In this document: piece by piece, positions 2,020-30,867 of the stretch
How the letters are laid out: each line of letters starts with the position of its first letter
Numbering within the stretch: the stretch's first letter is position 1
NCBI GenBank assembly: GCA_019359715.1
Contig: JAHHGS010000065.1
Span: 1 to 64,000 of the forward strand
Length of the DNA stretch: 64,000 bases
Direction: 5' to 3'
Source: Aphanocapsa sp. GSE-SYN-MK-11-07L
GTDB lineage: Bacteria > Cyanobacteriota > Cyanobacteriia > Thermosynechococcales > Thermosynechococcaceae
Notes under the pieces: generated by a model
What the model saw: the letters and a program-made list of their open reading frames with translations, nothing else
The model's database searches: none
What the model was told of the DNA's origin: nothing
Program-made: the position numbers and the translations under genes

Positions 2020-3033
2020 TTACGAATCGTTTGCTGCTGTCGCCTTGTACTCAATGATTTGCCCTGGCTTGCCCTGCCAGAGCCTTAACCCGTACTGGAG
2101 TTGACCCGCCAGTTGCGGAAATTTTGAGATCACGCAGAAAAAAGCATAAAGACGAGCATCGGTTGGTAGGTCGCCTTGCCGACAGCGATCGCGGTAGACC
2201 CGCAGCATTAGCAGGGGATAAACCGCAAACAGCAGCAGGCTAATGCCTTTGGTCGGCAACAGCAAGCCAACCGCGACCAGCGGTAGACCTAATCCCCAGA
2301 CCCAGCCGCTCTTGCTCTCGCGCACCATGTAGTTTTCTGGCGGTGTGCCATACATCGCTTTTCCTTCCGCCACCGACCAGCCAAACCGGCTGGCCCGCTT
2401 CCACCACTGCCCAAACTGATCCATGGCAATGTCGTGCAGGGTCATATCCGCATCCAGCCGCCGAATTTTCCAGCCTTTTTGCCGTAAGCGAATGCAGAGT
2501 TCGGGTTCTTCACCGCAAATTAAGGCCGGGTTGTAGCCCCCAACTTCTTGCAAAGCCTTGACCCGAACCAGTGCATCACCGCCACAGGCCAGCGCTTCTC
2601 CGATCGGGGTATTCCATTCCATCTCCGCCAGCCGATTGTAAGGCGTTGCTGCTGGAAACCGCTCTCGCCGCCGCCCGCAGGCGATCGCTAATTTTTGATT
2701 CTGATCTAAGGCAGAAATTGCTCGGTCAAGCCAGCCAGGCAGTAATTCGCAGTCACCATCGATAAATTGAACATATTCAAGCTCAGGCACCTTTTGAATC
2801 AGGGCTGTAAACCCAGCATTGCGACCCCGGGCAGCCGTCAGCGGTAAAGTCGCATCCAGTCCAACGGTTTCAATTCCCAATAATTTTGCTCGCTCAACGC
2901 TATCATCACTGGAGTCAGAATCAACGTAGACGCTCAGAAACTCATGCTCAGACTCAACCGGGAGTGACTCAAAACAGCGAACCAGTCGTTCTCCTTCGTT
3001 TCTGCCAATGATCACGATTCCAATCTTTGACAT
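2020..3033 (-). CDS. Glycosyltransferase family 2 with C-terminal membrane segments
   Basis: This 337-residue GT2 protein has the N-terminus MSKIGIVIIGRNEGERLV, a VDSDSSDDS block, a metal-binding FIDGDCELLPGW (about residues 91-102), and GEEPELCIRLRQKGW in the acceptor region. QWWKRASRFGW resembles the QxxRW-type motif. About residues 245-285 are hydrophobic, indicating membrane anchoring. It starts at a clear ATG. The previous gene on this strand ends 131 bp upstream, so it belongs to a leftward run of transferases. Sugar specificity is unknown. Confidence 0.85.
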   Translation of the reverse strand: MSKIGIVIIGRNEGERLVRCFESLPVESEHEFLSVYVDSDSSDDSVERAKLLGIETVGLDATLPLTAARGRNAGFTALIQKVPELEYVQFIDGDCELLPGWLDRAISALDQNQKLAIACGRRRERFPAATPYNRLAEMEWNTPIGEALACGGDALVRVKALQEVGGYNPALICGEEPELCIRLRQKGWKIRRLDADMTLHDIAMDQFGQWWKRASRFGWSVAEGKAMYGTPPENYMVRESKSGWVWGLGLPLVAVGLLLPTKGISLLLFAVYPLLMLRVYRDRCRQGDLPTDARLYAFFCVISKFPQLAGQLQYGLRLWQGKPGQIIEYKATAANDS

Positions 3034-3164: not shown

Positions 3165-4406
3165 TCAAACTGAGTTTGTCCCGTACTGCTGAATTAAGCT
3201 GCACCGATAGTGATAGATCGATTCCTGATCAAAGTTTCGGCCTGAGAGCGCCGCCTGACGGACTAGGGCTGCTAGCTTCACGCGGTCACGATCCAAGGCA
3301 ATAATCGTCTCCGCCAGTTTGCGCCAGTCGTTGACTGGGACAAATTGTCCACCGCCTTTTTCGGCCACCAATTCATCAGAATTAGCGCTGCTATAGCCGA
3401 CGATCGCACAACCCGAAACCAAGGCTTCAATCAGGCAGCGGGCTGATTCAGGCGTTTTGTGGCAGAACATAAACAGATGGCTATTTAGCAGCGTCGAGAG
3501 AACCTGGCCGCGATCGGAAACAAATCCTGGAAAGTCAATAAATGAGTCTACCGCCAGCTCTTTGGCCAGCGAAAGGGCATCATTCTGTAATGAACCGTCT
3601 CCTAGCCAAGTAGCTTTTAATTTTACGCCCGAATTCAAGGCTAAATGAATCGCGCGAATCCAGTCCAGCGGGCCTTTCATTTCACTGAGTCTGCCAGAGT
3701 AGCAAATTTGCAGGTCGTCCCCTTTAATAATGCTGGCCAACTTATGCTCCAAATTAGCTGGCTCAATTTGGTCGCTTTTGTTGGTACTGACTTTATGCAC
3801 TAAGTGAGGATTTTTACAATAAGGTGAAAACTCATTGAAGCAATCGCTCCCTTGCAGTAAAGCAACATTACTGCGGGATGCGACAAATCTAATGTATTGC
3901 TTCATCAGATTTGTGGTAATAGGATACTTTATTCTGCGTTTAAGCGGTTGAGTACGGGCCGTTTTGCGGAGGATTTCATACTCAATCCGAGCAATCATAA
4001 ACGCATAGGAGCGCCCCAGTGACATCGCTTCCAAACAAGCGACTCCTGCCCAATCTCCAATTAATACATAGGGTGAAAAAGCCAAATATTTTGAGTTGAG
4101 AATTTCCTGCCGCAGTAAATTACGAGTTTGTTTGAAACTAGCAATAAAATCTGTCAATTTGTAAGCATAGGGCAGAGGAATAATTTCCAGGCGATCGCGC
4201 AACGGCGAACTTGATACCTTGCACCAAGCTGAGTTTTCAGAAGTCTCACGCAGGCTTTCTGGCAATAACAAGCAGCCAACCGACAGATATTCAAAGTGGT
4301 TCAGAATTTGCGTAAACTCGCTATTTAAGGCTTGTTCATCAATCTCAAGCTCTCCCGCCGTATATCTAGTTGGCAACGGAGAAATTAGCAACAGTCTATC
4401 TTTCAT
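3165..4406 (-). CDS. Glycosyltransferase family 4
   Basis: This is a GT-B fold glycosyltransferase of about 413 residues. The C-terminal donor-binding half shows CYSGRLSEMKGPLDWIRAI, a LGDGS turn, FPGFV, and PESARCLIEALVSG, a degenerate form of the E-x7-E donor-binding motif. It probably adds a hexose or similar sugar to a lipid-linked repeat unit. I chose ATG 4404-4406; an in-frame TTG three codons upstream is possible but has no better ribosome binding site. The N-terminal half is poorly conserved, as is usual for this family. Confidence 0.8.
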   Translation of the reverse strand: MKDRLLLISPLPTRYTAGELEIDEQALNSEFTQILNHFEYLSVGCLLLPESLRETSENSAWCKVSSSPLRDRLEIIPLPYAYKLTDFIASFKQTRNLLRQEILNSKYLAFSPYVLIGDWAGVACLEAMSLGRSYAFMIARIEYEILRKTARTQPLKRRIKYPITTNLMKQYIRFVASRSNVALLQGSDCFNEFSPYCKNPHLVHKVSTNKSDQIEPANLEHKLASIIKGDDLQICYSGRLSEMKGPLDWIRAIHLALNSGVKLKATWLGDGSLQNDALSLAKELAVDSFIDFPGFVSDRGQVLSTLLNSHLFMFCHKTPESARCLIEALVSGCAIVGYSSANSDELVAEKGGGQFVPVNDWRKLAETIIALDRDRVKLAALVRQAALSGRNFDQESIYHYRCSLIQQYGTNSV

Positions 4407-4543
4407 GAAACTCAAGCTCTCAATTCAACCCCAATCTCAATCTTCTTTCTCTAGGAAAATAATCCTTTCTCAACCCGTTTAAAGCCATGCGTTGTTAGTA
4501 AAAACAGCTTTGAGTCCAACTCTAATATCGCGGCAATTATAAA

Positions 4544-6246: not shown

Positions 6247-7272
6247 ATGACTATCGAAAGTACACCAATTGTCAGCGTTATTCTGCCGACGTTTAATCGC
6301 GCCCATTTGTTACCTAGAACGATCAAGAGTGTTTTTAGCCAAACTTTATCCAACTTTGAGCTGATTATTGTTAATGATGGTTCAACGGATAATACGCTTG
6401 CGGTGCTGGCGCAAATATCAGACCCGCGAATTGTCTTGATCGATCTACCTAGAAATTTTGGAGCCACCTATGCCCGAAATGCTGGGATCGCTGCTGCCAG
6501 GGCAGAGCTTGTAGCATTCCTAGATAGTGATGATGAGTGGCTACCCGCGACATTAGAACTTCAGGTCGATCGGCTCAATTCCAGCGCTGATCCTTTGGCC
6601 AGCGTTGTCTATGCCGACGAAGTATTTTCCCAACCAAAATCTGCCACAAATCAGGCATCGCCAGCCTTAAGCGTTGCCAAACCTTACGAGGGCGACGTTT
6701 TTTACTTCTTATGTACGCGGGAGCTTTGCCCCAGCACTTCGATGGTGCTGGTTAAGCGCTCTGCTTTAATTCGAGTTGGCGGCTTTGACATCAACTTACC
6801 TAGTCAGCAAGACTGTGATTTGTTTTTGAAGTTGGCCTACACATCGAATCATTTTCTGGCGGTGAATCAGCCATTGGTGATTAAGAACAATAATGAATTT
6901 CGGATCAGCAATGATTTGGATGCCAAGGTGAGAGGGATTGAAGTCCTTGACTGTAAATGGGGCAAGATTATCAAACAGCGGTTTGGCGATGCGGTTTATC
7001 GCCAGTGGTTAAATTGGCTGTTCGATGTTGTTGATCGATTAAAAATTAGAAAAGCAGCCAGTGATGGCAAGATGATGTCAGCCTGGATAACTTTTCTCGG
7101 TTCCTTGGGCTCTGTCAGCCACAATAATTTTTGGGGGAGAGTTAAGCTGTTGCTCGTCGTCTTGCTGAAACAAGATGAGCAAGTCTATAAAAATCTGTAT
7201 CAGTTTTATCAGCGCAAACTAAAGCATCGCCCATCAAATCCTGCTGAGGGTCAATCTAGTCTAGAAACCTGA
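6247..7272 (+). CDS. Glycosyltransferase family 2
   Basis: This is a 341-residue GT-A enzyme. It shows IVSVILPTFNRAHLLPRTI, VNDGSTDNT, RNFGATYARNAGI, and the metal-binding FLDSDDEW (about residues 94-101), then SQQDCDLFLKLAY in the acceptor region. No membrane segments stand out. It is the first gene of a rightward group with two sugar oxidoreductases, so it may transfer a sugar those enzymes help make. The start ATG at 6247 places the family N-terminus correctly. Confidence 0.87.
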   Translation: MTIESTPIVSVILPTFNRAHLLPRTIKSVFSQTLSNFELIIVNDGSTDNTLAVLAQISDPRIVLIDLPRNFGATYARNAGIAAARAELVAFLDSDDEWLPATLELQVDRLNSSADPLASVVYADEVFSQPKSATNQASPALSVAKPYEGDVFYFLCTRELCPSTSMVLVKRSALIRVGGFDINLPSQQDCDLFLKLAYTSNHFLAVNQPLVIKNNNEFRISNDLDAKVRGIEVLDCKWGKIIKQRFGDAVYRQWLNWLFDVVDRLKIRKAASDGKMMSAWITFLGSLGSVSHNNFWGRVKLLLVVLLKQDEQVYKNLYQFYQRKLKHRPSNPAEGQSSLET

Positions 7273-7333: not shown

Positions 7334-8473
7334 ATGAAAAGAACGCAGGTTGCGATCGTCGGCTGTGGTTTTGTGGCTGATTATTACGTGAAAACCTTGG
7401 CAGCACACCCGCAGCTAGAACTGCGCGGAGTCATGGATCAGGTTGCGGAGCGATCGGCTAAATTTTCTGCCTATCATTCTGTGCCCGTATACAAATCTTT
7501 GCCAGAACTCCTAGCGGATGAACAGATTGAGATTGTCCTGAATTTGACGAATCCGCGCAGCCATTATCAAGTTTCTAAAGCCTGTTTGCTGGCAGGCAAA
7601 CATGTTTATTCTGAGAAGCCGCTGGCCATGGACTTTGCGGAAGCTGAGGAGTTAGTTGGCTTAGCAGAGCAACTTGGCTTGCAACTTTCCTCGGCTCCCT
7701 GTAGTTTGCTGGGAGAAACGGCTCAAACCCTCTGGAAGGCCTTACGGGAAAACCAGATTGGTCAAGTTCGGGTGGTCTATGCCGAAATGGACGATGGGCT
7801 GGTGCATAAAATGCCCTATCAGCAATGGCTGAGTGAGTCTGGCACGCCCTGGCCCTACAAGGACGAATTTGAAGTCGGTTGCACCCTGGAACATGCGGGC
7901 TACTATTTGACTTGGCTAGTGGCATTCTTTGGGCCAGCCACTTCTGTTACTGCCTTTTCCACTTGCCTGATTCCTGACAAGGAAACAAGTTTACCGCTGG
8001 ATCTGGTTGCACCAGACTTTTCAGTCGCTTGTATTCAGTTTACCTCTGGGGTTGTGGCTCGTTTGACCTGTAGCATTGTCGTTCCCCATGACCACACGTT
8101 AAGAATTGTCGGTGATGATGGTGTGCTGTCTACCAAAGATTGCTGGTACTATCGATCGCCGGTTTTTATCAAGCGCATGATCACGATTCGACGCAAAACG
8201 TTTATGAACCCCCTGCGCCAAAACCTGCCGCTGCTCAAGAGCAACTATTTATCGAAGTTTAAGTACAAGGGATCGCAGCAAATGGATTTTAGCCGAGGGG
8301 TGGTAGAAATGGCAGAGGCGATCGCCGAAAATCGTCCCTCTCGTCTCTCTGCCCGCTACGCTTTACACGTGAATGAAATTACCCTAGCCATTCAAAATGC
8401 CTGGGAAAATAACTGCACCTACAAGCTAAAATCAACCTTTGCCCCCATTGCACCCATGACTTGGGCAAAGTAA
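7334..8473 (+). CDS. Gfo/Idh/MocA family NAD(P)-dependent oxidoreductase
   Basis: The 379-residue protein has an N-terminal Rossmann fold with VAIVGCGFVADYY (residues 6-18), then NLTNPRSHYQVSKACLLAGK and the signature SEKPLAMDFAEAEEL. This is followed by a C-terminal alpha/beta domain containing CTLEHAGYYL, where the catalytic His of the family is expected. Such enzymes oxidise or reduce sugar hydroxyls, often on nucleotide sugars for surface polysaccharides. It follows the GT2 gene by about 60 bp and precedes a second member of the same family. The substrate is unknown. Confidence 0.88.
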   Translation: MKRTQVAIVGCGFVADYYVKTLAAHPQLELRGVMDQVAERSAKFSAYHSVPVYKSLPELLADEQIEIVLNLTNPRSHYQVSKACLLAGKHVYSEKPLAMDFAEAEELVGLAEQLGLQLSSAPCSLLGETAQTLWKALRENQIGQVRVVYAEMDDGLVHKMPYQQWLSESGTPWPYKDEFEVGCTLEHAGYYLTWLVAFFGPATSVTAFSTCLIPDKETSLPLDLVAPDFSVACIQFTSGVVARLTCSIVVPHDHTLRIVGDDGVLSTKDCWYYRSPVFIKRMITIRRKTFMNPLRQNLPLLKSNYLSKFKYKGSQQMDFSRGVVEMAEAIAENRPSRLSARYALHVNEITLAIQNAWENNCTYKLKSTFAPIAPMTWAK

Positions 8474-8532: not shown

Positions 8533-9606
8533 ATGCCAAAAATAATTCGTTGGGGAATTTTAGGGACGGGCTACATTGCTGGAGAATTTGCTCAAGGGCT
8601 GAAGCGGGTTCCGAATATCCAACTGTTGGCTGTCGGTTCCCGCCAATTCAGCCGCGCCCAAGAATTTGCCAATCGTCACCAAATTCCCCAAGCCTTCGGC
8701 AGTTACGAAGATCTGGCCAATAGCGATCTGGACGTGGTCTATGTTGCTACTCCGGCAGCGCGGCATCGAGATGATTGTCTGCTTTGCCTCCATGCCAATA
8801 AAGCGGTGCTCTGCGAAAAACCTTTTACTATCAATGCTGCCCAAGCTAAGGAAGTGATTGAGTTAGCCCACAGCAAGCAGCTCTTTTGCATGGAAGCAAT
8901 GTGGATGCGCTTTATTCCGCTGATCCAGCAGGTCAAACGCATGATTGATGGTGGCGAGATCGGTGATATTTGCCTGCTAAGCGCTGATTTTAGCGTTCCG
9001 ACTGAATTTAGGCCTGAGAGTCGGTATTATGACCCGTCTCTGGGGGGAGGGGTGCTGCTCGATCGCGGCATTTACGCCCTTTCCCTCGCTTTTTATCTCT
9101 TGGGTGCGCCGGAATCGATGGTCAGTCAAGCTGCGATCGGAAAAACCCAGGTGGATGAACAGATCGGCATGGTTTTAAAGTACACGCAAGGTCAACTTGC
9201 TATTCTTTCTGCCAGTTTCCGCACCTACTCTCCCAACGAAGCAATTATTATGGGCACAAAGGGCAGAATCTGCCTCCATGAGCCATTTTATCGTCCCCAC
9301 AAAATATCTACAGTGACTAAGTTTCCCCTCGTGAGGGGATCTGCTGCCCCGACTTCAGTCGGGCTAAAACAGAAACTCACCGCTGCTATGAAGCAAAATG
9401 CATGGGTGCGATCGCTTTACTACCAATTTGAGCCTTTCCTTAAACCAGCCAAAACTACTTTGCAGCCCCCTGATGGTAATGGCTATAGCTATGAAGCCGC
9501 GGAAGTCGTTCGCTGTCTGCAAATGGGAGAACTTGAAAGCAAAATTATGCCCTTGGACGAAACGCTCAAAATTATGGCAGCAATCGATCAAATGCGCCAA
9601 GTCTAA
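8533..9606 (+). CDS. Gfo/Idh/MocA family oxidoreductase carrying a palindromic in-frame insertion
   Basis: This is a 357-residue paralogue of the preceding gene. It has IIRWGILGTGYIAGEFAQGL (Rossmann loop), CEKPFTINAAQA, and CMEAMWMRFIP, which resembles the dihydrodiol/xylose dehydrogenase branch. LDRGIYALSLAFYLLG follows, and the C-terminus has GNGYSYEAAEVVRCLQMGEL. Between HEPFYRP (about residues 253-259) and GNGYSYEA (about 316) the chain is longer than I would expect. Part of this stretch is encoded by two adjacent hairpins at 9325-9363, suggesting a repeat insertion that kept the frame. It may still be functional because the segment lies in a surface region of the C-terminal domain (inference). 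Confidence 0.85.
   Translation: MPKIIRWGILGTGYIAGEFAQGLKRVPNIQLLAVGSRQFSRAQEFANRHQIPQAFGSYEDLANSDLDVVYVATPAARHRDDCLLCLHANKAVLCEKPFTINAAQAKEVIELAHSKQLFCMEAMWMRFIPLIQQVKRMIDGGEIGDICLLSADFSVPTEFRPESRYYDPSLGGGVLLDRGIYALSLAFYLLGAPESMVSQAAIGKTQVDEQIGMVLKYTQGQLAILSASFRTYSPNEAIIMGTKGRICLHEPFYRPHKISTVTKFPLVRGSAAPTSVGLKQKLTAAMKQNAWVRSLYYQFEPFLKPAKTTLQPPDGNGYSYEAAEVVRCLQMGELESKIMPLDETLKIMAAIDQMRQV
9325..9363. repeat. Double-hairpin palindromic element inside a coding sequence
   Basis: CCCCTC/GAGGGG (9325-9330 with 9333-9338) and CCCGACT/AGTCGGG (9348-9354 with 9357-9363) form two tandem hairpins with 2-nt loops. The arrangement resembles transposon subterminal hairpins or REP-like units. It lies within the second oxidoreductase and is translated in frame. 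Confidence 0.65.
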
Positions 9607-9621
9607 GGCGATTAGACTAAG

Positions 9622-10848
9622 TCAGCGCGAGTAGCCTGATTCAGCCGCCAGATATTTTCTAAATAGTTCTGCTAATCTGCTCGCTTCGTGTTTAGCATCG
9701 TGGTTTTTAATCACTCGTTCGGCACCTACTTGACCCATCTGCTCCAATTGGTCTAGAGGAGTTTGCATGGCCACTCTCATGGCATCAGCTAGAGCCTCCG
9801 CAGAACCCGCTGGAATCAGCCAACCGCACTTACCCGGTTCTACCAACTCTGGAATCCCAGCGATGTAGGTACTAATCACCGGACGCGATAGCGCCAATGA
9901 CTCCATAATCACAACCGGCAATCCTTCGGCAAAACTGGGAGCCACCATGATTTGGGCCGCCAGAATTTGTTGGCGTACCTCAGCATTACTGGCCCAGCCA
10001 GTGATCTCAACATGGTTTTGGAGGTTGAGTTGACTGATCAAGGTTTCCAACTCAGGGCGCAGTGGGCCATCACCGACCAGGACAACTTTAAATTGCCGCC
10101 CTTCGATCGCAAGTTGGCTAATCGCTTCAATCAGCAGCAAATGACCTTTTTGTTCGTCTAGCCGACCAACACAGACAAATTGAGGGTGGGGCAGCAGGGG
10201 AACGTGGGGATGAGTCAAGAACATCTCGTCCACACCGCAGCGAATGATGTGAATTTTGCTCCATTGTTGATAGCCACACCAGCGAAATAACTGGCTTTTG
10301 CTAAATGAGCTGATTGTTGCCACAAAGGCAGCATGAGTAATTTTTTGCTGCATCCCCAATGCTTTAGGATTGTCGAATTCATGGGGCCCATGCACCGTGA
10401 AACTGTAGCGCGGGCCACCCAGCTCATGGCATAAAAGCGCCACCATGGCAGAATTAGTCGCAAAGTGAGCGTGAACGTGTTCAATGTTTTCCTCTGCCAG
10501 CCAACTGACCAGTAAGCACGCTTCTGCCAAGTAGGCGAGGTAAATTAAGATGCCGCGATCTGAACTTTTACCAACTTGGAGCGATAAGTTCAGCGCTTTC
10601 AAAAACCTGACCGGCCTGGTCGCAACTTGCCGCAGCAGACCCAGGAATAAGCCCGCTCGATTCCGATCCAGAATATACCGAGTTTGCTTGACCTCTTGTT
10701 GATCGGCTGTATCAACCAGGGTGGTTTCTGGAAACCGAATCGAAAATCGGCTGACCTCAATTCCGCAGGCTTCAATCCCAGCAATTTCCCTGCGAATAAA
10801 CGTGCAGGTAGAATAGGGATGTTGATTCATCAGGTAGCCAATTTTCAT
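9622..10848 (-). CDS. Glycosyltransferase family 4
   Basis: This is a 408-residue GT-B enzyme. The N-terminus KIGYLMNQHPYSTCTFIRRE and the middle HVHAHFATNSAMVALL plus FTVHGPHEF resemble colanic-acid/exopolysaccharide-type transferases. The donor domain has CVGRLDEQKGHLLLIEAI, VGDGPLRPELE, ITGWASNAEVRQQI, and SFAEGLPVVIMESLALSRPV with the E-x7-E motif. It is convergent with the oxidoreductase gene, 15 bp away. Start ATG at 10846-10848. Confidence 0.9.
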   Translation of the reverse strand: MKIGYLMNQHPYSTCTFIRREIAGIEACGIEVSRFSIRFPETTLVDTADQQEVKQTRYILDRNRAGLFLGLLRQVATRPVRFLKALNLSLQVGKSSDRGILIYLAYLAEACLLVSWLAEENIEHVHAHFATNSAMVALLCHELGGPRYSFTVHGPHEFDNPKALGMQQKITHAAFVATISSFSKSQLFRWCGYQQWSKIHIIRCGVDEMFLTHPHVPLLPHPQFVCVGRLDEQKGHLLLIEAISQLAIEGRQFKVVLVGDGPLRPELETLISQLNLQNHVEITGWASNAEVRQQILAAQIMVAPSFAEGLPVVIMESLALSRPVISTYIAGIPELVEPGKCGWLIPAGSAEALADAMRVAMQTPLDQLEQMGQVGAERVIKNHDAKHEASRLAELFRKYLAAESGYSR

Positions 10849-11194: not shown

Positions 11195-12436
11195 ATGAAC
11201 CGCAAACTATACTGGGCTGAAATTATTTTTGCAGTGATCGGATTTCTGTTTTATAGCGGAGCTACAATCGGAGGATTGAGGTTCGTGCTGCCACTTGGCC
11301 CAGTTAATTTATTGCTTCGCTATGGTTTGCTGGTGGGAAGTTTCATACTTTTATTATTGCGGTGGCGAGGCACTCTATTTACACTGCAAAAGTCGCTGCT
11401 GATTTGGCTACTGATTGGACTCATGTTTGCGTCTCTAATCTGGTCTATTAATCCTCAGGAAACTTTTACGCAATTGAGAGCAGATTTGTTGCCAATGATG
11501 CTTTTTAGCCTCTACTTTGCCAGTCGCTTTTCCTTGGATGAACAACTAGAGGTTGTCTCAATGGCGCTTGGCGCTGGGCTATTGATGAGCATTTTTTGTG
11601 CTGTGGTGGTGCCTAGCGTGGGTGTTCACCCTGCTGGCAGTGCTTTCGCTGGAGCATGGAAGGGAGTTTATATTGAAAAAAATGGATTTGGAGCAATTTC
11701 AGTCCTAACTGCAAATGTTCTATTTCTGAAAGCGATTTTTGCCAAAAAACATTATTTTAGGGCATGGTTTCCCTTTGGATTGGCAATGCTTGCAGTTCTC
11801 CGTTCCACCTCCAAAACCTCTCTAGCTTTGTCTTTTGTCACTCTGCTAATTATATTTTCAATTTATCACTTTAAATGGCAAGGAAAAAGGACAATTTTAA
11901 TCTCAGATATTTTGATTCTGATTGTAGGTGGCGTGATTACCTACGCAATCAGTCAGTTTGACAATGTTTTTGGCTCTCTTTCAGGCAGAACTGATGTTTG
12001 GAGTTTTGCGCTGCATAGATTGGGCGAAGACTATTTCTGGTTCGGCTTTGGCAAAGGAGCATTTTTTAATACGCCAGCGATTATGGAATCGTTTAGATTT
12101 GAGTACCAGTACATGGTTAACCATGCTCACAACGGGTATTTAGAGACTCTTTTAGACATAGGCTTTGTTGGAGTAATTATATTTCTTATTTGCTTCGTCT
12201 TGATCTACAGCAAGTCTTTTCAGCTTGCCTATAAAGCAGATCGACCCAGTGAATTATTTCCAATCACACTCCTAAATTTTTTGCTGCTTCAGAACTTGTC
12301 CGAAAGCTATTTGACCTATCGAGCAAATATTGTCTGGGTTTTGTTTGTCAGCACTTGTTTATCTGTTAATAAATACACCTTTATTAAATCAAAAATCGCA
12401 GCTAGTAGGAGGTCGGACTACAATACTAGCACCTAA
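11195..12436 (+). CDS. O-antigen ligase/polymerase (Wzy/ExoQ-like) membrane protein
   Basis: The 413-residue protein is almost entirely hydrophobic helices (roughly 10-12). It has a large loop containing SGRTDVWSFALHRLGEDYFWFGFGKGAFF and NHAHNGYLETLLDIGF (about residues 266-320). This RTxxW plus HNxYLxxLxxxG arrangement is the Wzy_C/O-antigen ligase signature. Such proteins polymerise or ligate undecaprenyl-linked repeat units on the periplasmic side of the inner membrane. It is followed 98 bp later by the GH74-like gene on the same strand. Polymerase and ligase cannot be told apart by sequence alone. Confidence 0.87.
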   Translation: MNRKLYWAEIIFAVIGFLFYSGATIGGLRFVLPLGPVNLLLRYGLLVGSFILLLLRWRGTLFTLQKSLLIWLLIGLMFASLIWSINPQETFTQLRADLLPMMLFSLYFASRFSLDEQLEVVSMALGAGLLMSIFCAVVVPSVGVHPAGSAFAGAWKGVYIEKNGFGAISVLTANVLFLKAIFAKKHYFRAWFPFGLAMLAVLRSTSKTSLALSFVTLLIIFSIYHFKWQGKRTILISDILILIVGGVITYAISQFDNVFGSLSGRTDVWSFALHRLGEDYFWFGFGKGAFFNTPAIMESFRFEYQYMVNHAHNGYLETLLDIGFVGVIIFLICFVLIYSKSFQLAYKADRPSELFPITLLNFLLLQNLSESYLTYRANIVWVLFVSTCLSVNKYTFIKSKIAASRRSDYNTST

Positions 12437-12534
12437 TTATTTTGCTGATTATTTTGAAGCAACAAGCTTCTCAGGCGTTGAATTCCTTCTAATCAATCCG
12501 CGATCGCATAAGCCCAAAAAGCCAGAAAAAATCA

Positions 12535-15018
12535 ATGCTTAATTCCTTTACAACAACCAAAGTAGGGCATTTGCCCAAACTTGCCAGAACTTTATTCTTG
12601 GGCACAGTCCTGGTGGTAGAAGTGGCCTGTAGCCGCTCGATTGCTCCAGCCAAACCATTGACCTATCAGCAAGCTGCCACTCCTAATCAGTCAACCCCAG
12701 CTAGCTCAACCAGCCCGCCTAAGAGCAGCGGCGGCATGTTTGCCTGGCGCAATGTCCCCTTGCAGGGAATGGGCTATGTGACGGGGATCGTGATTCACCC
12801 CGCTGCGCCCCATGATGTCTATATCCGCACGGATGTCGGTGGAGCCTACCGATTTGAACGGGCAAAAAGTCGTTGGCTTCCCCTCATGGACATGTTTGCT
12901 TCTAGGAGCGGGATTGGGGTTGAAAGTTTAGCCATTGATCCTCACCAACCGGGGCGGATCTACATCGTGATCGATTGGGCAAACTCAACCAAGGGGAATC
13001 CGCGAAATCCGATTTACACTTTTGCCGCCGAAGTTTTCCAATCTTCAGATCGGGGGGGGAGCTGGCAACCGCTGGGATTTGGGGCCAAGAATGTTTATGT
13101 CTCCCCAAACGGTGCTTACCGGATGTCCACCGGCGAAAGACTTGTGGTTGATCCGAATCAGGCAGGACTGCTGTTTTTTGCATCCCGGCGAGATGGACTT
13201 TGGCGCTATGACCAATCTTGGCAGCGGGTGGCCGGTGGACTGCCCGATCCGAAAACTTTCCCCAATTTTGCCAATAAGCAGGGTAAACCGAGGGGCGACT
13301 TGCCAGGCTTTACTTTTTTAGTGTTTGACCCACGATCGGCCAAAAGCAGCGGTCCCACCCAGACGCTCTACCTCGGAATCCATGCGGTTGGCTCTGCCGC
13401 TGGGGGCGTCTGGAAAAGTCAGAATGGTGGGCGATCGTGGGCCAATATTGGCGGAGCTGCGAATCCACTCCGGGGGGTGGTGGCCAGTGATGGCACCCTC
13501 TACGCTGCGTTTGGAACCAATGGCGACAAGGCCGGTGGCAGCCTGCGCAAACTCAAAAATGGCGTTTGGAGCGACATCACGCCTGAAAAACGGCGCAATT
13601 TCAACGGAATCACTGTCCAACCGAATCAGCCAACCACTGTCATGAGCATCTCAGGAAATCGGGTTTACCGCTCCACTGATGGCGGCATCAACTGGACAAC
13701 CCAAAAGATGGCGATGAAGGCTGATCAGAATCCTACCGCCCCAAAATACTATACCGAAGCCTCTGTTTCTGCTGGCGCATCCACGATCTTAATTGACCCC
13801 GCTAATGCTAAGCAGGCCTGGTGGACAAATGGCTACGGGGTTGCCCGCACTGATGATGTGGCAGCGCAGACTCCGTTCTGGGGCTGGCAGATGCAAAATC
13901 TGGAGGAAATGGTGGCCAAGGTTCTGCGCGTTCCACCCAAACTAGGTGGAGCTGACCTGCTGGCAAATGTTGGAGATATGATGGGCTTTCGGATTGAAAG
14001 TCGGAACCGAGTCCCTAACTCCACCTATAATCCAGTCGGAATTCCAGTGAATCCTGCCTTTAAGTGGGCCATGCCCCAAACCTGGAAGACCTACCCTTCT
14101 CCTTTCCCTCACGTCGCCATGGGGACGGGGCTTGACTATGCATACAAAAAGCCTGATTATGCTGCTTTTGTGGGCTGGCATCAATGGCAGTATTGGCCAG
14201 TCTACGGCTACACCAGTGACAATGGACGAAGCTGGCGGGCCTTTAACTCAGTCCCGAAACTCCACTGGGACAAGAAAAAACAGCAGTATGTAGAAAAGAC
14301 GCCGCTGGGCGGACAGATTGCCATGTCCCCAATTGATCCGAAGAACATGGTTTGGACGCCAACCCGCAGCGTTGATCCTCACTTCACTAAAGACGCAGGA
14401 CTAACTTGGCAACCCTGCAAGCTGGCCAATGGTCGCCCACTTCCAAATGCCTGGGCCAACTCCATCTCTCCCTGGGTGACGCCCTTTCTCTTAGCTGCCG
14501 ATCGCGCTGATCCCAAAGGACAAACCTTCTATTATTTCAATGGCAATACCTTTTACATCAGCAAAGATGGCGGAGCCACCTGGAATCTAGGCGCTTCCGG
14601 CGGTTTCCCACCATGGATTGTCTCGCCAGCGGTTGTGGTCAATCCCACTCAGCCAGGAGAGATCTGGATTAGTTTCGCCCGGAACCGTAATGCTGTCAAG
14701 GCAAATAAGCTCTTCCGCTCGGTTGATGGCGGAAAGAGCTTTCAGCCCCTAGAAACAGTTAAGAGCGCTGAAATAATCACCTTTGGCCGGGGTTTGTCGG
14801 CAACCCAGCCATTTGTTTATATTTTTGGCCAGATTGGTAAAGCTAGCCAAAATGCAATTTATAAATCTGAGGACATGGGGAAAACCTGGAAGCAAATTAG
14901 CAATCCGCAAGTGCAACAGTTCCCTGGCATAACCTATATGGAAGGAGATATGCGTACCCCTAATTTGGTTTACGTCAGCCTTGGGGGAAGAGGGATTATG
15001 GTCGGTGAGTTACGCTAG
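12535..15018 (+). CDS. GH74-like beta-propeller glycanase, probable lipoprotein
   Basis: The 827-residue protein has a hydrophobic N-terminus, then Cys32 and a Ser/Thr/Pro-rich linker (33-67). This looks like a lipoprotein, although the residues before the Cys (VVEVAC) are an atypical lipobox. The rest looks like the tandem seven-bladed propellers of GH74 xyloglucanases. YVTGIVIHP and RTDVGGAYR (98-106) match the family entry motif with catalytic base Asp100. VGDMMGF matches the family GDxxGF block with Asp481 as the likely acid. Many BNR/Asp-box turns follow (SSDRGGSW, STDGGINW, SKDGGATW, SVDGGKSF, SEDMGKTW). It probably cleaves a beta-glucan-like polymer outside the cytoplasm. Its position after the Wzy-like gene suggests a role in trimming or releasing the polymer made here. 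The exact substrate is unknown. Confidence 0.8.
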   Translation: MLNSFTTTKVGHLPKLARTLFLGTVLVVEVACSRSIAPAKPLTYQQAATPNQSTPASSTSPPKSSGGMFAWRNVPLQGMGYVTGIVIHPAAPHDVYIRTDVGGAYRFERAKSRWLPLMDMFASRSGIGVESLAIDPHQPGRIYIVIDWANSTKGNPRNPIYTFAAEVFQSSDRGGSWQPLGFGAKNVYVSPNGAYRMSTGERLVVDPNQAGLLFFASRRDGLWRYDQSWQRVAGGLPDPKTFPNFANKQGKPRGDLPGFTFLVFDPRSAKSSGPTQTLYLGIHAVGSAAGGVWKSQNGGRSWANIGGAANPLRGVVASDGTLYAAFGTNGDKAGGSLRKLKNGVWSDITPEKRRNFNGITVQPNQPTTVMSISGNRVYRSTDGGINWTTQKMAMKADQNPTAPKYYTEASVSAGASTILIDPANAKQAWWTNGYGVARTDDVAAQTPFWGWQMQNLEEMVAKVLRVPPKLGGADLLANVGDMMGFRIESRNRVPNSTYNPVGIPVNPAFKWAMPQTWKTYPSPFPHVAMGTGLDYAYKKPDYAAFVGWHQWQYWPVYGYTSDNGRSWRAFNSVPKLHWDKKKQQYVEKTPLGGQIAMSPIDPKNMVWTPTRSVDPHFTKDAGLTWQPCKLANGRPLPNAWANSISPWVTPFLLAADRADPKGQTFYYFNGNTFYISKDGGATWNLGASGGFPPWIVSPAVVVNPTQPGEIWISFARNRNAVKANKLFRSVDGGKSFQPLETVKSAEIITFGRGLSATQPFVYIFGQIGKASQNAIYKSEDMGKTWKQISNPQVQQFPGITYMEGDMRTPNLVYVSLGGRGIMVGELR

Positions 15019-15113: not shown

Positions 15114-15923
15114 TTAGGACAACCGCTTTTTTTCAGGGTCTTTTTCAAGCATAAAAACAGTATTATCGTATCCTCCGTTTAAGAATCCTAAGGATAAATT
15201 AGCTGCTATCATTATGAATGCTTCGATGAAAGGCTTGACAGGGCGAGGATAGTATGCGCGCTCACCATAGATTGCTGTAATGGTAAAACCATTTTGCTCA
15301 CAAAATATACTAAGTCCATTACGAGATAGTAGGTCAGTATAAAAGGTTGGAAATGGTCCGAAACCAGGTTTCCCTGCACTTGAGTTACCAAATATATACT
15401 TGAAGGCCCATACATGAAACCAGTGTGGAGTAAAGTTTGTGATAAAACCTCGAACAGATCTGGGGTCGGGAACTCGTAGGACTAAAAGACCGCCTTGTTT
15501 CAACCACGTATAAAAGTTTTTCAAAACCGCATCTGACTCTTTTATATGTTCAAGAACATATGCACAGTAAATTACATCATATTTTTCCTTAGGTAGCTCA
15601 ACGTGTCGCAGATCACCCTCTACTATTTCATCAAGATCATGCTGGATATTTTTCCTCATTTCTAGAGCATCTCTATCAATATCTAATCCCGTAATATGAT
15701 ATGGAATATCTTTTAAATTAAACCACCAACGCTGTCCACATCCCGCTTCTAAGATATTTAATGAAATCCCAGCACTCGACTTATTCCTAATAGAATTCTC
15801 AATAATTTTAGAGATTTCTTGGCAAGAAGCTATTTTTTTGATCGGAAGTTTAATCATTGTCATGGCTCCGCTAGTAGTAATGGTATTCAAGTAAGGATTT
15901 TGAGCAGCGTGAACTTGTCCCAT
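15114..15923 (-). CDS. Class I SAM-dependent methyltransferase
   Basis: The protein is about 269 residues. ILEAGCG is the glycine-rich motif I of SAM binding. Then come TGLDIDRDAL (acidic residue binding the ribose), VEGDLRHVELPKEKYDVIYCAYVLEHI and GGLLVLRVPDP. The fold is that of UbiE/type-11 methyltransferases, common in polysaccharide loci where they methylate sugars. The gene looks more AT-rich than its neighbours and is flanked by a duplicated GH74/GT4 junction, suggesting later insertion. Start: ATG 15921-15923 is preferred; a TTG three codons upstream and internal ATGs are alternatives. Confidence 0.8.
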   Translation of the reverse strand: MGQVHAAQNPYLNTITTSGAMTMIKLPIKKIASCQEISKIIENSIRNKSSAGISLNILEAGCGQRWWFNLKDIPYHITGLDIDRDALEMRKNIQHDLDEIVEGDLRHVELPKEKYDVIYCAYVLEHIKESDAVLKNFYTWLKQGGLLVLRVPDPRSVRGFITNFTPHWFHVWAFKYIFGNSSAGKPGFGPFPTFYTDLLSRNGLSIFCEQNGFTITAIYGERAYYPRPVKPFIEAFIMIAANLSLGFLNGGYDNTVFMLEKDPEKKRLS

Positions 15924-15932
15924 GTTGCTCAA

Positions 15933-21563: not shown

Positions 21564-22586
21564 TTAACTCTTGTTGATCACTTCCTTGAAGCTGCTTTTG
21601 GGCTGAGTTAATTTTTTGCCCCAAGCAATCCAATGACTTTCATAGTAGTAGGTCGATAAGTGCGCTAAGCCAAACGTTAGGGCAAAGGAAAGCGGTCGCT
21701 TAGCATACACAATTAGCTTATCCCCCGACCCTAGCCAACCATAATACGTGATTGGGTGAATTACGTACAGCGCGTAGGATATTTCACCAATATAAGCAAG
21801 CATCCGTGTGTTGAGTAGTTTGAGCAGCCAAGACTTATTTGGATGCAATGTCGAGCCAACCAATAAAACCGCAAAGTATGGGCGGAAGTACCTGACAACA
21901 CCACTGGCAGGATGGCAAGAAATTAAAAGCAGCACTAAGCATAGATAGGGGTTTAGCCTTTTGATCATCTGTAAGAGTGGAGTCCCCAATCGACCTTCAT
22001 TGATCAGCGCTAAACATGCCCCAACTAAAATTTCATCTACTCGGGCATAGGTAGCAATTGAAACGGGCTGCCCGTGCAGAATTCTAAATCCAGTTACTAC
22101 GAGGCAGAAAGCTGGCAGCAATAGCAGTCCGCGCTGTCGGAATAGTCCAAACAGGAATGCAATAAACAGATAGAACTGCATTTCGACGCAGAGACTCCAG
22201 AAGTGAGCAGTCAGAGGAGTGATCCAGGTTGTATCTAGGTTGGCATAAAAAAGAAAGTTAGCCAGGTAGGCGCCAAAGGGGGCTGCCTGAAGCGGGAGGG
22301 CGATGATCAGAAATGCCCATGCTAAGGGAAGAATCCGAAAAAAGCGGCGAATTAAGAAATCCCGAACATTTGCGCGATGGATCAGGGTACTTGTGATTAG
22401 GAAACCTGAGAGCGCAAAGAATAAACTCATGCCCAACAAAGCAAATGTAATGTTAAGTTGCCATGACTTGAGACCCAACGGGAGCATGTGAGCTGCTAAC
22501 ACACAAAGAATACTGATCCCTCGCCAACCATCTAAAGCTGGATAGCGTGGTAGACGATGAGACGGCAACGATTGGGGTGTATCCAT
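21564..22586 (-). CDS. Acyltransferase 3 family membrane protein (OafA/NodX type)
   Basis: The N-terminus after the chosen ATG (22584-22586) gives RYPALDGWRGISILCVLAAHM, the family entry motif with catalytic His/Asp-type residues. About ten hydrophobic helices follow, with HFWSLCVEMQFYLF and a C-terminal YALYVIHPITYYGW. These inner-membrane proteins move acetyl or other acyl groups onto sugars of surface polysaccharides. A frame extension of 45 residues upstream lacks family similarity and was not used. It lies between the pyruvyl transferase and a GT2 gene. Confidence 0.88.
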   Translation of the reverse strand: MDTPQSLPSHRLPRYPALDGWRGISILCVLAAHMLPLGLKSWQLNITFALLGMSLFFALSGFLITSTLIHRANVRDFLIRRFFRILPLAWAFLIIALPLQAAPFGAYLANFLFYANLDTTWITPLTAHFWSLCVEMQFYLFIAFLFGLFRQRGLLLLPAFCLVVTGFRILHGQPVSIATYARVDEILVGACLALINEGRLGTPLLQMIKRLNPYLCLVLLLISCHPASGVVRYFRPYFAVLLVGSTLHPNKSWLLKLLNTRMLAYIGEISYALYVIHPITYYGWLGSGDKLIVYAKRPLSFALTFGLAHLSTYYYESHWIAWGKKLTQPKSSFKEVINKS

Positions 22587-22771
22587 ACTGATCGGGCTGG
22601 CTTCAAGGATTAGATTTGATTTTGGTGTATGGTTCAGCGAAAATTGCAGGGCAATAAGACTGGCTGATGACCCAGGCTGACCGTTCTTGGCGATCGCGCA
22701 ATTGATCCAACTACTCGCCAAGAACTGGAGCTGAAATTTATTTTACGATCCAGAACTGAAATTAATAAAGC

Positions 22772-23983
22772 TCATGATATGTCTCTTCTGGTTGAATTCC
22801 AGTTTTTCTGAGCATTAAACATCGACATCAGGTAAAGCGGAATTTTCCAGAGAATATAGAGCGGAACAGCAATCAATTTAATCAACGGCAACTCCGCTCG
22901 CCCAAATTTAGCCCAACCCAGAATAATTGACAAGCCAAGAAATAAACCCGTTAAAAGCAGCAGAAAGATGGGTAGCCATAGTGCCATCACCGAGCGGGCT
23001 AGGAGACTAAGCAGGGTCATACCTAGCCAGAGCAGAACCAGCAGCGCTAGAGGCGGAATCCAAAGTTCCAACCCCAGGGCAAACAAATCAGGTCGCCCTT
23101 GCTGAAAGGCGGTTTGCAGCAGCTTGGGAAGATAGGTCTTCATGACTTGGAGATGACCGTGTTCCCAGCGAGTTCGCTGTCCTTTCGCAACCTGCTGATC
23201 TTGAGGAAGCTGGCTCAGCACAAGCGCCTCAGGACAGAATTGGGGGGGGTAACCGGCGATCGCCAAGTCAAGGCCCAATTTCATATCTTCCACAATGTGT
23301 CCGCTGGCCAAATCAACCGAGCAAATGACTGGCCAAGGAAAAGCCATTCCGGTTCCGGTCAGTAAACAGGCTAATCCTAACTTATGCAGCCCCAATGGGC
23401 GAACCCAATTTTTGACCTTAAACGCAAAGGCTGAAATCAAGTCTTTTTGACTGGGCTGGGCAGGTTGATCTAGCAAATAAATCGCTTGGATCGGTCTTTG
23501 GACGGCGAAGGCTTGTTGAGCCAACACGGGCAAAGCCCCAGATTGAACTTGGCAATCAGCATCCACCATCACGACAACGTCCGGCGGTTGCTGGCTGAGA
23601 TGGCGGAGTCCAAAATCTAGCGCGTAGCCCTTTCCCCGATGGTTGGGATCATGACGTGCAATCACTGTTGCTCCCATTGCAGCGGCGATCGCGGCGGTTT
23701 GATCCTCGCAGTTGTCGGCAACAACCACGACCTGATCGGTTGCCTTAACCTGCTTGAGCAAAGACTGTAGCGTTGACTCGATCACCAGTGCTTCATTATG
23801 GGCAGGCATTAAGACAGCGACTTTGATCTGCTGCCAATCAACGTCTCGCTTGCTGGGGCGATCGGGCAAAAATACGGCTGAGCATGATTCAACCAGTAAA
23901 ACAATTGTCGGGATCAAAAGGGCGATCGCAAGCAGCGACAGGAAAATCTGGGTCAGAAATGCTAAAGGTATTTCAGCTAACAT
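22772..23983 (-). CDS. Membrane-bound processive-type glycosyltransferase family 2
   Basis: This is a 403-residue protein. An N-terminal membrane helix (about 10-35) precedes a GT2 domain with VAVLMPAHNEALVIESTL, VVVADNCEDQT, VVMVDADCQV, SGHIVEDMKLGLDLAIAG, and QRTRWEHGHL, the QxxRW motif. Several C-terminal helices follow, as in cellulose-synthase-like enzymes. It is probably an inner-membrane enzyme extending a chain or acting on a lipid carrier. Its ATG overlaps the stop of the wzc-like gene (TAATG), so the two are translationally coupled. Confidence 0.9.
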   Translation of the reverse strand: MLAEIPLAFLTQIFLSLLAIALLIPTIVLLVESCSAVFLPDRPSKRDVDWQQIKVAVLMPAHNEALVIESTLQSLLKQVKATDQVVVVADNCEDQTAAIAAAMGATVIARHDPNHRGKGYALDFGLRHLSQQPPDVVVMVDADCQVQSGALPVLAQQAFAVQRPIQAIYLLDQPAQPSQKDLISAFAFKVKNWVRPLGLHKLGLACLLTGTGMAFPWPVICSVDLASGHIVEDMKLGLDLAIAGYPPQFCPEALVLSQLPQDQQVAKGQRTRWEHGHLQVMKTYLPKLLQTAFQQGRPDLFALGLELWIPPLALLVLLWLGMTLLSLLARSVMALWLPIFLLLLTGLFLGLSIILGWAKFGRAELPLIKLIAVPLYILWKIPLYLMSMFNAQKNWNSTRRDIS

Positions 23984-26277
23984 TATTTGCGATTCATCTT
24001 ATTGAGTAGAAGATCCAGATTTGGATCATCAACCACAGGCTCATTCAGCGGCACTTTTAGCCCGTAAGGATAAGGTCTCAACCGCCCATAGGACTTGTGT
24101 TCTTGATGTTGGCTATCGGTATCCACTGCATTAGCCACTAAACCCAGTATCTGAGAGTCGGAGGTTGCAAGCATTGTCTTAGCCGTAATCGCTTCCGCCG
24201 AAGTCACCAAGCGCGGGCGAACGACCATCAGGATTCCATCCGCCGCTTTACCCAGAACTATCGCATCCACAGCTCCTTGCAGCGGAGGAGTGTCAATAAT
24301 CACATATTCATACTCTTGTAAAAAGGAATCAATTACCGTGAACATTGCATCTGAATCAATCAGAGCTAAAGGGTTGGGGGGCATCACCCCTGCCGCCAAA
24401 ACAGTCAAATTGGGTAAAACCTGTTTGAACGAATGCTTTAGGTCTCCCGCACCAAACAGAACATGGCTAAATCCGATTGGGTCAGTTAAATTCCAGAGCC
24501 GATGCTGAGAGGGATTTCTCAGGTCTGCATCGACTAGCAGCACCCGCCGTCCCGATTGAGCAAGGCTAGCGGCCAAGTTTGCAGCCACCTCAGACTTACC
24601 CTCTCCAGGCACTGAGCTTGTGACAACAATTGCTCTCAACTTTTTGTCGGAACGCAGAAATCGCAGGTTAGCCTGCAAGATTTCATAGGCTGCACCGACG
24701 GGTGACTGCGGATCGTGTAGTGTAATGATCCGAGTTGAAAATTGGTCAACGTAAGAAGAAAGCATCTTCAACGCTTTTTTGTCTGGAGACTTGAACTGGG
24801 GAACCACCCCCAGCAGCTTGAAGCCAAAGAGAGCCTCAGCGTCTTTAACCGTCTTGATTGATTTATCAAGAATGTCGAGTAAGAAAGCTGTCGCAACCCC
24901 CATTAAAGCACCAACAACCAAACCCGCCGCCAGTAACCTCAAGTTACCTGAGCCAAGTGCTTTAGTCGGTTCAAAGGCTTTTTCCAAAATTCGAGCATTG
25001 CCAACATCCTGATTTTCGGCTAGCTCAGTTTCCTTACTTTTGGCTAACAACGTTTCATAGTTGGTTTGGGCCGCTTTCAATCGCTGCTCTAGGAGTTGCT
25101 GATTTTTTTCCAATTCAGGAAACCGATTCAGCCGTCGCGAGTAGTCTTGCCGCGATCGCTGCAATGCTTGGAGCTGCTTCTGAGCCGCCAACCGACTAGC
25201 CTCCGCAGTTGCCAGATTTTCTGCCAGTTGCTGCTTAAGTCCGCCAATTTGCAGGTCGCCTGGTGCAACTGCGCTTGAACCAACAACCTGCTGAATTCGA
25301 TTCCTCAGAATCGCTCTCAGATTGTCTGCTTGACCTTTCAAATCAACAATAATTGGACTCTTGTCGGTGTAAAGTTCACTTTGTCCAGCCAATTGATACT
25401 CTACTTTTTGCAGTTCGGTCAGAGCATTTTGCACCCCAGGGGTTTGGCTCAAGGTGCTCAGCTTAATTGCTTGGGACGGAGAAAGACCCAACTGCTGTTG
25501 TAGTTCGTTAGACTGCGCCGTAAAGCTCGCCAGTTCAGACTCCGTCAATTGAACCTGTTCGTCAGCCGTTTTCATCAAATCAACTGCCGCATCCATTTCT
25601 GGCTCTAGGGAAGCAATCCTATAGCGCTCTTTAAACTGACTCAATGCTTCTGCTGCTTTGCGGAGGGCTAATTCGGCTTGAGGTAACTGAACGTTGATAA
25701 AAGCTTTGGCACTCGTAGCGTCCCCCCGATTACCCGAAATGTTGCTCTTAAGATAAGCACTCATCAGGTAATTAACGACATTAGCAGCTAGCTTTGGATC
25801 CTGAGATTTATAGCCAATCTGGAGAACGTCTGTGCCAGGGACTGATTTGACCGACAGTGGGCGGACAAAATCTTCAGGAGCAATTAATTCACCAGCGGCA
25901 TTTCTAATATTCAGGGCACTGATCGTTTCCTGGAGTAACGGCGATGACTTCAAAACCTCTGCTTGCGTTTGCAGATAAGATGCAAGCGGGCTATCCTTAC
26001 CACCCGTCTGAACGTCTAAAGCATTGAATTCCTGACCGACACCCGTCAGGGCAGAAGTAGGATTACTCCGTTGAAAGAGCAGCTTGCCTTCAGCTTCATA
26101 GCCAGGTTTCTTGGAAAAGGAGACATAAACCGCTGCCGAAGCAAAAAGTATAAGGACAGCAGTTGCAGGCAACCAACGCCTTTTCAAGACTAGCCAGTAG
26201 CCTTGAGGATCAATTTCCTCAATGTATTCCCTATGCTTTATCGGGCTTTGGTTCTCCAAAATCTGCCTTGCTCCCAA
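23983..26277 (-). CDS. wzc: Polysaccharide co-polymerase/tyrosine autokinase (Wzc-like)
   Basis: This is a 764-residue protein. A Wzz domain comes first (ID-PQGYWLVLKRRW, membrane helix about 33-52). Long coiled-coil segments follow (about 190-440), then a second membrane helix (about 463-487) and a C-terminal BY-kinase: Walker A SSVPGEGKSEVAANLA, Walker A' VLLVDADLRNP, Walker B YVIIDTPP. Such proteins set chain length and control Wzy-dependent polymer export by cycling phosphorylation. The C-terminal tail has only three tyrosines (SYGRLRPYPYG), fewer than typical clusters. The gene is coupled to the next GT2 gene by a 1-bp overlap. Start ATG at 26275-26277. Confidence 0.93.
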   Translation of the reverse strand: MGARQILENQSPIKHREYIEEIDPQGYWLVLKRRWLPATAVLILFASAAVYVSFSKKPGYEAEGKLLFQRSNPTSALTGVGQEFNALDVQTGGKDSPLASYLQTQAEVLKSSPLLQETISALNIRNAAGELIAPEDFVRPLSVKSVPGTDVLQIGYKSQDPKLAANVVNYLMSAYLKSNISGNRGDATSAKAFINVQLPQAELALRKAAEALSQFKERYRIASLEPEMDAAVDLMKTADEQVQLTESELASFTAQSNELQQQLGLSPSQAIKLSTLSQTPGVQNALTELQKVEYQLAGQSELYTDKSPIIVDLKGQADNLRAILRNRIQQVVGSSAVAPGDLQIGGLKQQLAENLATAEASRLAAQKQLQALQRSRQDYSRRLNRFPELEKNQQLLEQRLKAAQTNYETLLAKSKETELAENQDVGNARILEKAFEPTKALGSGNLRLLAAGLVVGALMGVATAFLLDILDKSIKTVKDAEALFGFKLLGVVPQFKSPDKKALKMLSSYVDQFSTRIITLHDPQSPVGAAYEILQANLRFLRSDKKLRAIVVTSSVPGEGKSEVAANLAASLAQSGRRVLLVDADLRNPSQHRLWNLTDPIGFSHVLFGAGDLKHSFKQVLPNLTVLAAGVMPPNPLALIDSDAMFTVIDSFLQEYEYVIIDTPPLQGAVDAIVLGKAADGILMVVRPRLVTSAEAITAKTMLATSDSQILGLVANAVDTDSQHQEHKSYGRLRPYPYGLKVPLNEPVVDDPNLDLLLNKMNRK

Positions 26278-29982: not shown

Positions 29983-30789
29983 CTAGCGATCGCTAGCGCT
30001 CTGGGCAAAATCTTTGGGACGATATTGCGATACTCGCTCAGACCAAGGATTACGATAAAGGTTGAGCTTCTGCTTTAAGAACAAAAGTAAGCAAGGAAGA
30101 TCGTCAACAATGTAACGTTTCCATAGTCGGTTACGGTCTTGAGAGATCCGATAGAGCCACTCCAAACCTACCTCACTCATCCATTTAGGCGAGCGCCTAA
30201 CATGACCTGCTTCAAAATCCAGGGTTGCGCCAACTGCCAGAATCGTCTTAACTCTTCTCAATTGGCTCTGATACTTATAGACCCACTTCTCTTGTTTCGG
30301 TGCACCGACCCCGATCGCTAAAACAGTTGCGCCGGATTGGTTAATCAGGTTAACAATCTCGCGGCACTCTGCTTCATCTTTCTCGAATCCAAAGGATGGG
30401 GAGTGAGCAGCGACCACAATTTCACGACCAATTTTGCGGTTGATTCTCTCCTGTGCCTTGAGGGCAACACCCGGTGCAGCGCCAAGCAAAAACATCTTAA
30501 CTGAGTCGTCGTCTCTGTAATATTCACAGAAGTCGGGGAAAAAGTCTGAACCCGATATTTTTTCCTGAAACGGCATGCCTAGCAGCTTGGAAACAAACAA
30601 CAATATCTGACTATCACAAACGCGATAGCTCGCAGCTTGATAGGCAATGTAGAACTCCTCATCCGCCTGGAGTTTGGAAAGGTGATCTAGATTGGCTGTG
30701 AAGACGACTCCACCCTTACACAAGGCTTTCAGGAGTTGGAGTTTTGAGATGTTATGAATATCTAGGTTCAACAGTTTAACAGTTTTCAC
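29983..30789 (-). CDS. WecG/TagA/CpsF family glycosyltransferase (GT26)
   Basis: The protein is about 268 residues and has the family blocks FTANLDHLSKLQADEEF, CDSQILLFVSKLLGMPF, GSDFFPDFCEYY, FLLGAAPGVALKAQERI, LAIGVGAPKQEKWVYKY, GATLDFEAGHVRRSPKWM and GLEWLYRISQDRNRLWKRY. These enzymes add a sugar such as ManNAc(A) to a lipid-linked intermediate at the inner membrane. I chose GTG 30787-30789, which has an AGGGGGAA 9 nt upstream and starts just before VKLLNLDIHN. A TTG 26 codons upstream is possible but less likely. It lies alone between two long gaps. Confidence 0.88.
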   Translation of the reverse strand: MKTVKLLNLDIHNISKLQLLKALCKGGVVFTANLDHLSKLQADEEFYIAYQAASYRVCDSQILLFVSKLLGMPFQEKISGSDFFPDFCEYYRDDDSVKMFLLGAAPGVALKAQERINRKIGREIVVAAHSPSFGFEKDEAECREIVNLINQSGATVLAIGVGAPKQEKWVYKYQSQLRRVKTILAVGATLDFEAGHVRRSPKWMSEVGLEWLYRISQDRNRLWKRYIVDDLPCLLLFLKQKLNLYRNPWSERVSQYRPKDFAQSASDR

Positions 30790-30867
30790 AGATGGATTCC
30801 CCCTGTAAAGAGGCGATCGAGAAAGCGATCGCAGTTGCGTAAAACCAAAGTCAACAGAGGATACCAA

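Follow-up and report, generated by a model that had tools for sequence, protein, structure and literature searches.

The stretch of DNA analysed here (the window; 64,000 nucleotides from the cyanobacterium Aphanocapsa sp. GSE-SYN-MK-11-07L) carries at 12535–15018 on the forward strand a reading frame of 827 codons, running from an ATG at 12535 to a stop at 15018 as an earlier note on this DNA had placed it, which encodes an 827-residue, putatively exported glycoside hydrolase of the GH74 type. The gene is present as a single copy in a genome of 5.1 Mb that is 99.5% complete. This genome also encodes about 28 TonB-dependent receptor beta-barrels, a number that seems high for a cyanobacterium of its size. 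Directly upstream on the same strand lies a Wzy_C (PF04932) polysaccharide polymerase gene (11195–12436), and the 98-bp distance that the earlier note had given corresponds to a spacer (12437–12534, forward) without a predicted terminator or promoter. Further forward-strand genes encode a GT2 glycosyltransferase (6247–7272), a Gfo/Idh/MocA sugar oxidoreductase (7334–8473) with 66–69% identity to one in Nostocales loci that combine GH74 and Wzy, and a second Gfo/Idh/MocA oxidoreductase (8533–9606).

The reverse strand carries a GT2 glycosyltransferase (2020–3033; 47–61% identity to counterparts in those Nostocales loci), two GT4-type glycosyltransferases (3165–4415, 44–46%; and 9622–10848, 51–58% to a counterpart in part of the loci), a membrane acyltransferase (Acyl_transf_3; 21564–22721), a GT2-type glycosyltransferase (22772–23983; 51–56% to the glycosyltransferase that follows Wzc in the Nostocales loci), a Wzc/Wzz-type regulator of chain length and export (23983–26277; 41–44%) and a WecG/TagA/CpsF glycosyltransferase (29983–30867; 55–61%). 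At the edge of this polysaccharide region, a reverse-strand gene (31295–33781) combines Calx-beta repeats with a right-handed beta-helix, and its product is possibly an exported protein of the lyase or epimerase type. Base composition is uneven, with GC 0.405 in the Wzy gene against 0.531 in the GH74 gene; the methyltransferase gene at 15114–15932 (GC 0.377) is, like the Wzy gene, AT-rich relative to its surroundings (about 0.50), and these flanking genes suggest an exchange of locus parts. The Wzy–GH74 tandem may therefore be a recent join, the GC difference fitting a mosaic assembly.

Pfam analysis of the predicted protein revealed BNR/Asp-box repeats, in line with the many Asp-box turns described previously, together with a Sortilin/Vps10-type propeller; a GH74 model proper was not among the Pfam matches, and an NCBIfam scan gave zero matches above the cut-off. 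Searching the PDB with phmmer returned 17 sequence matches, all of them GH74-type (best 2cn2, E 5e-57) rather than the non-enzymatic propellers that the earlier note had considered damaging to its reading, and the alignment to ClGH74A (6p2m) was end to end. An AlphaFold2 model of residues 68–827, built from 14 close homologues, reached a mean pLDDT of 77 and a pTM of 0.69. The 25 best Foldseek matches of this model were all GH74 chains (E 2e-49 to 6e-17, TM 0.40–0.74; 6p2m at E 2.2e-49), and the first non-GH74 fold in the ranking had an E-value of 5e-13. In the model, the tandem seven-bladed propellers match GH74 structures along the full length, at an rmsd of 6–7 Å that goes with a loosely predicted relative orientation of the propellers. 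The E-values and the conservation across cyanobacteria exclude a chance match, and the description of the protein as GH74-like is borne out, GH74 being the sole full-length match in both sequence and structure. A VPS10-like, non-catalytic propeller was rejected as an identity on the basis of this full-length match and of two invariant catalytic residues.

These residues are Asp100 (codon 12832–12834, forward) and Asp481 (codon 13975–13977, forward), which the earlier note had named as the two halves of the GH74 signature. Asp100, in RTDVGGAYR, aligns with the catalytic Asp in RADIGGAYR of 2cn2, where 2cn3 has Ala (RAAIGGAYR), while Asp481, in VGDMMGF, aligns with the second catalytic Asp, that of the GD..GF motif of 6p2m and 6p2n (sequences as printed in the HMMER alignments). 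Both were invariant in 55/55 aligned proteins from cyanobacteria, Bradyrhizobium and heterotrophs, a set in which a few loci overlap. Judged by homology and by the fold match, the two would face each other across the cleft, the arrangement that the earlier note had asked about.

The positions that contact xyloglucan have fared differently. Trp126 of ClGH74A, which forms the −4 subsite (PMC8245568) and was used to fix the numbering, is replaced by Tyr161; the position of Trp367 is taken by Lys, and no HQ[FYW] motif is left. A tandem Trp is found in five reference sequences (6p2m, 6p2n, Burkholderia, Streptomyces and Nonomuraea) and is, by our inference, the pair linked to processivity in Paenibacillus enzymes (PMC10317168). 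Its loop (LWWP or AWWP in heterotroph GH74 xyloglucanases) is deleted from the window protein at approximately 13648–13668 on the forward strand (..MSISG-NRVYRS..), and within the aligned set it is kept by none of the cyanobacterial members nor by the Bradyrhizobium protein. The window protein thus lacks the aromatic platform of GH74 endo-xyloglucanases at subsites −4 and +3/+5. Since Xanthomonas Xeg74 cuts xyloglucan despite being without the +3/+5 aromatics (PMC8245568), the changed platform argues for another substrate but does not prove it. As judged from these alignments, the protein is no ordinary xyloglucanase: the cutting residues are kept and much of the grip on xyloglucan appears to be lost. 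With several xyloglucan contact positions changed, the earlier suggestion that the polymer is beta-glucan-like finds no support.

The N-terminus carries a predicted export signal (12535–12633, forward) that ends at Cys32, and the protein is likely exported. The Cys follows a hydrophobic stretch and is accompanied by a Ser/Thr/Pro linker, so the lipoprotein-like character proposed previously holds to that extent; a certain lipid anchor does not, because the non-canonical lipobox (V-E-V-A-C, followed by Ser) has Glu at −3 and does not match [LVI][ASTVI][GAS]C. A Cys at the equivalent place occurs in many, not all, members of the protein's own clade (clade C, below), several having it and others none.

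Phylogenetic analysis separated the cyanobacterial GH74 proteins into three main lineages, A, B and C, beside the xyloglucanase clade. Clade C comprises the window protein and Nostocales proteins with 48–58% identity, clade B counted 18 proteins in the first tree, and clade A possibly represents two lineages. Clades B and C and the xyloglucanases each occupied one side of their own 100% branch, which places the window protein outside the characterised xyloglucanase clade; the comparison with plant-degrading GH74 that the earlier note had proposed therefore separates the two. The deep order of the clades was not settled in the tree, nor by an AU test for joining clade C with the xyloglucanases (p 0.50).

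The genomic neighbourhoods of these lineages were compared by counting related ORFs in loci of about 18 kb (8-kb flanks), with the window's polysaccharide genes as seeds; one Wzx and one Wza seed were added, and the own matches of these two were left uncounted. Clade A loci held a mean of 4.2 polysaccharide ORFs (at least two in 6/6) and clade B loci 3.1 (at least two in 12/17), against 0.2 in 40 control loci from the same genomes (at least two in 2/40) and zero in heterotroph GH74 loci (at least two in 0/6), several of which instead hold catabolic genes such as GH3, GH9, arabinofuranosidase, xylose genes and TonB receptors. Clade B loci contain Wzx, a Pfam-less multi-pass protein resembling Wzy, a Wzz/Wzc-like protein and several GT2 enzymes. 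A multi-pass membrane family (cluster c5) recurs in clade B loci L069, L070, L072–L074, L078 and L079 (e.g., L078 15305–16600), and the member that was scanned is without a Pfam match and resembles a divergent type of Wzy polymerase. On a Bradyrhizobium barranii plasmid (L080, match 12001–14004), a GH74-like gene whose product also lacks the tandem-Trp loop lies beside glycosyltransferase, asparagine-synthase-like and sugar-transferase genes, possibly with the same polysaccharide role outside the cyanobacteria.

Clade C loci averaged 0.56 polysaccharide ORFs within 8 kb, with at least two in 2/16. The impression from these flanks that clade C is hardly linked to polysaccharide loci was corrected by wider regions and by a co-occurrence search, in which 193 genomes of one Nostocales-type family were queried for both the window Wzy_C protein and GH74. 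Each of the 39 genomes that carry a clade-C GH74 (bits over 800) also encoded the window-type Wzy, at about E 1e-58 or better, so that among the 193 genomes the enzyme occurs only with this polymerase. The remaining genomes had it in 28/154 cases at E below 1e-55, a cut-off set after the values were seen (Fisher 5e-23, kinship of the genomes ignored). The coupling persisted at genus level (16/16 with clade-C GH74 vs 9/40 without; p 5e-8, kinship again ignored) and within the genera that vary in both genes (g63, 3/3 vs 0/6; g175 and g191, each 1/1 vs 0/1). Genomes with clade B only served as an internal control, and a strong window-type Wzy was found in 3/20 of them, which is not above background. 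The 28 genomes with Wzy and without the GH74 imply that the polymer does not depend on the enzyme. In a class-wide search, the closest relatives of the Wzy did not adjoin GH74, and Wzy similarity alone is therefore no predictor of adjacency.

In six of the 39 clade-C genomes, all Nostocales, the GH74 gene lies 9–15 kb from the window-type Wzy in loci that also hold Wzx, directly beside GH74 in five of the six. These loci have WecG, Wzc, GT2, GT4 or oxidoreductase genes in common with the window, and nine window proteins have counterparts in Nostocales GH74 loci or related Wzy loci (Wzy 31–38% identity, GH74 53–55%). Thus clade-C GH74 is linked to a Wzx/Wzy-type exopolysaccharide locus both by co-occurrence and by these six loci with GH74, Wzx and Wzy. 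From its gene content, the window carries a form of a conserved polysaccharide locus, one where GH74 has ended up right behind Wzy. Wzx lies on a different contig of the window's genome, and most clade-C genomes have GH74 apart from the Wzy locus; cyanobacterial exopolysaccharide genes are known to be scattered (PMC4594306).

Taken together, the fold and family match, the catalytic pair, the changed contacts, the adjacency to Wzy, the conserved locus and the exceptionless co-occurrence with Wzy in the family tested make it probable, to our judgement, that the window protein is an exported GH74-type endo-glycanase that would be dedicated to a single conserved Wzx/Wzy-type exopolysaccharide system of cyanobacteria and cut its polymer. 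The two catalytic Asp would sit in the cleft between the two seven-bladed propellers, and the neighbouring Wzy would join the repeat units. Held by its N-terminus in the periplasm or at the outer envelope, the enzyme would cut within the nascent or finished polymer, and the cut could set chain length, release the polymer from the cell or clear trapped chains. Trimming or release of the cell's own coat polymer is the probable purpose, because the gene stands beside a polymerase, much of the xyloglucan grip is lost and the enzyme is found, among the genomes compared, only with that Wzy type. The earlier note had likewise tied the protein to the cell's own polysaccharide, a proposal strengthened by the 39/39 coupling, by the conserved Nostocales locus and by the same pattern in the two other cyanobacterial GH74 clades. 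We also lean, if only slightly, towards a broader reading in which most cyanobacterial GH74 proteins are not xyloglucanases but hydrolases that process exopolysaccharide, in three or more separate lineages, each with its own Wzx/Wzy-type locus. Clade C would then cut the polymer of one WecG–Wzc–Wzy system and would represent a subfamily of GH74 whose substrate is new and not xyloglucan.

The strongest rival, which overlaps with this main reading, is that the enzyme acts on the mature sheath or slime for development (hormogonium release, false branching or sheath opening) and not during synthesis. Clade C occurs in Calothrix, Rivularia, Scytonema and Mastigocoleus, genera known for sheaths, tapering or branching, and its genes are often away from the locus, as would be expected for separately regulated release enzymes. 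Actinoplanes GimA and GimB, which cut a self-made sporangium matrix (PMC12691653, PMC13390465), are a proven precedent with another fold. However, the window GH74 directly follows Wzy on the same strand, and some clade B relatives carry a pair of membrane segments at the N-terminus, which points to a periplasmic location; we regard such a developmental role as possible but doubtful.

The enzyme could also be a scavenging xyloglucanase or general beta-glucanase that attacks external polysaccharide of plants, algae or lichen partners and lies in the locus by chance. Its closest characterised relatives are xyloglucanases, its genome has many TonB-dependent receptors, and the hosts of its clade include Rhizonema and Scytonema, genera to which lichen photobionts belong. 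This explanation is nonetheless weakened by the changed or deleted xyloglucan contact positions and by a genome search that found no GH31 and no GH35, the latter result arguing against feeding on xyloglucan together with the genome-wide coupling to a single Wzy lineage; the catabolic neighbours of heterotroph GH74 genes are also missing beside the window gene, and we consider it unlikely. Least likely is a propeller without catalytic activity whose role would be to bind or guide the polymer. Asp-box propellers frequently serve for binding, and the subsites have changed, but binding alone would not require both catalytic Asp to be invariant over such deep divergence.

The putative processing enzyme has parallels among known enzymes. 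It has the full-length double-propeller fold, both catalytic Asp and the Asp-box repeats in common with the GH74 endo-xyloglucanases (ClGH74A, 6p2m; C. thermocellum, 2cn2; PgGH74, 6p2n; Streptomyces; Xanthomonas Xeg74), but differs from them in its separate clade, the deleted tandem-Trp loop, the changes at the W126 and HQ[FYW] positions, and a gene neighbourhood of polysaccharide synthesis rather than catabolism, without an alpha-xylosidase partner. Xeg74, which like the window protein lacks the +3/+5 aromatic platform, is encoded in a locus for xyloglucan utilisation, together with GH31, GH35, GH95 and TonB transporters (PMC8245568). Another parallel is with Actinoplanes GimA and GimB (GH5), where a polysaccharide cluster adjoins gimB, and with WpsE (GH26): these glycoside hydrolases are likewise linked to Wzx/Wzy-type polysaccharide clusters, but belong to other families and folds. 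A nearly full-length GH74 match was also found in a 4.9-kb "Bacteriophage sp." record from human faeces (GenBank MT838787.1), which may be a mislabelled bacterial fragment.

PslG, BcsZ, AlgL and ExoK are hydrolases or lyases of exopolysaccharide loci that cut the polymer of their own locus, with folds unrelated to GH74. Hydrolases in polysaccharide loci are known in kind, while in the open-licence literature we found no study of GH74 in exopolysaccharide synthesis, nor of cyanobacterial xyloglucanases; GH74 is treated in the literature examined as a family acting on plant xyloglucan. If the cyanobacterial branches process their own exopolysaccharide, the family would have an unstudied biosynthetic side, and "xyloglucanase" annotations in cyanobacteria would be misleading. 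An enzyme matched to a cyanobacterial polymer would help in reading the structure of that polymer and offer a means to control sheath, slime and biofilm. With one hydrolase coupled to one polymerase, the control of chain length and release of cyanobacterial exopolysaccharides would also become directly testable.
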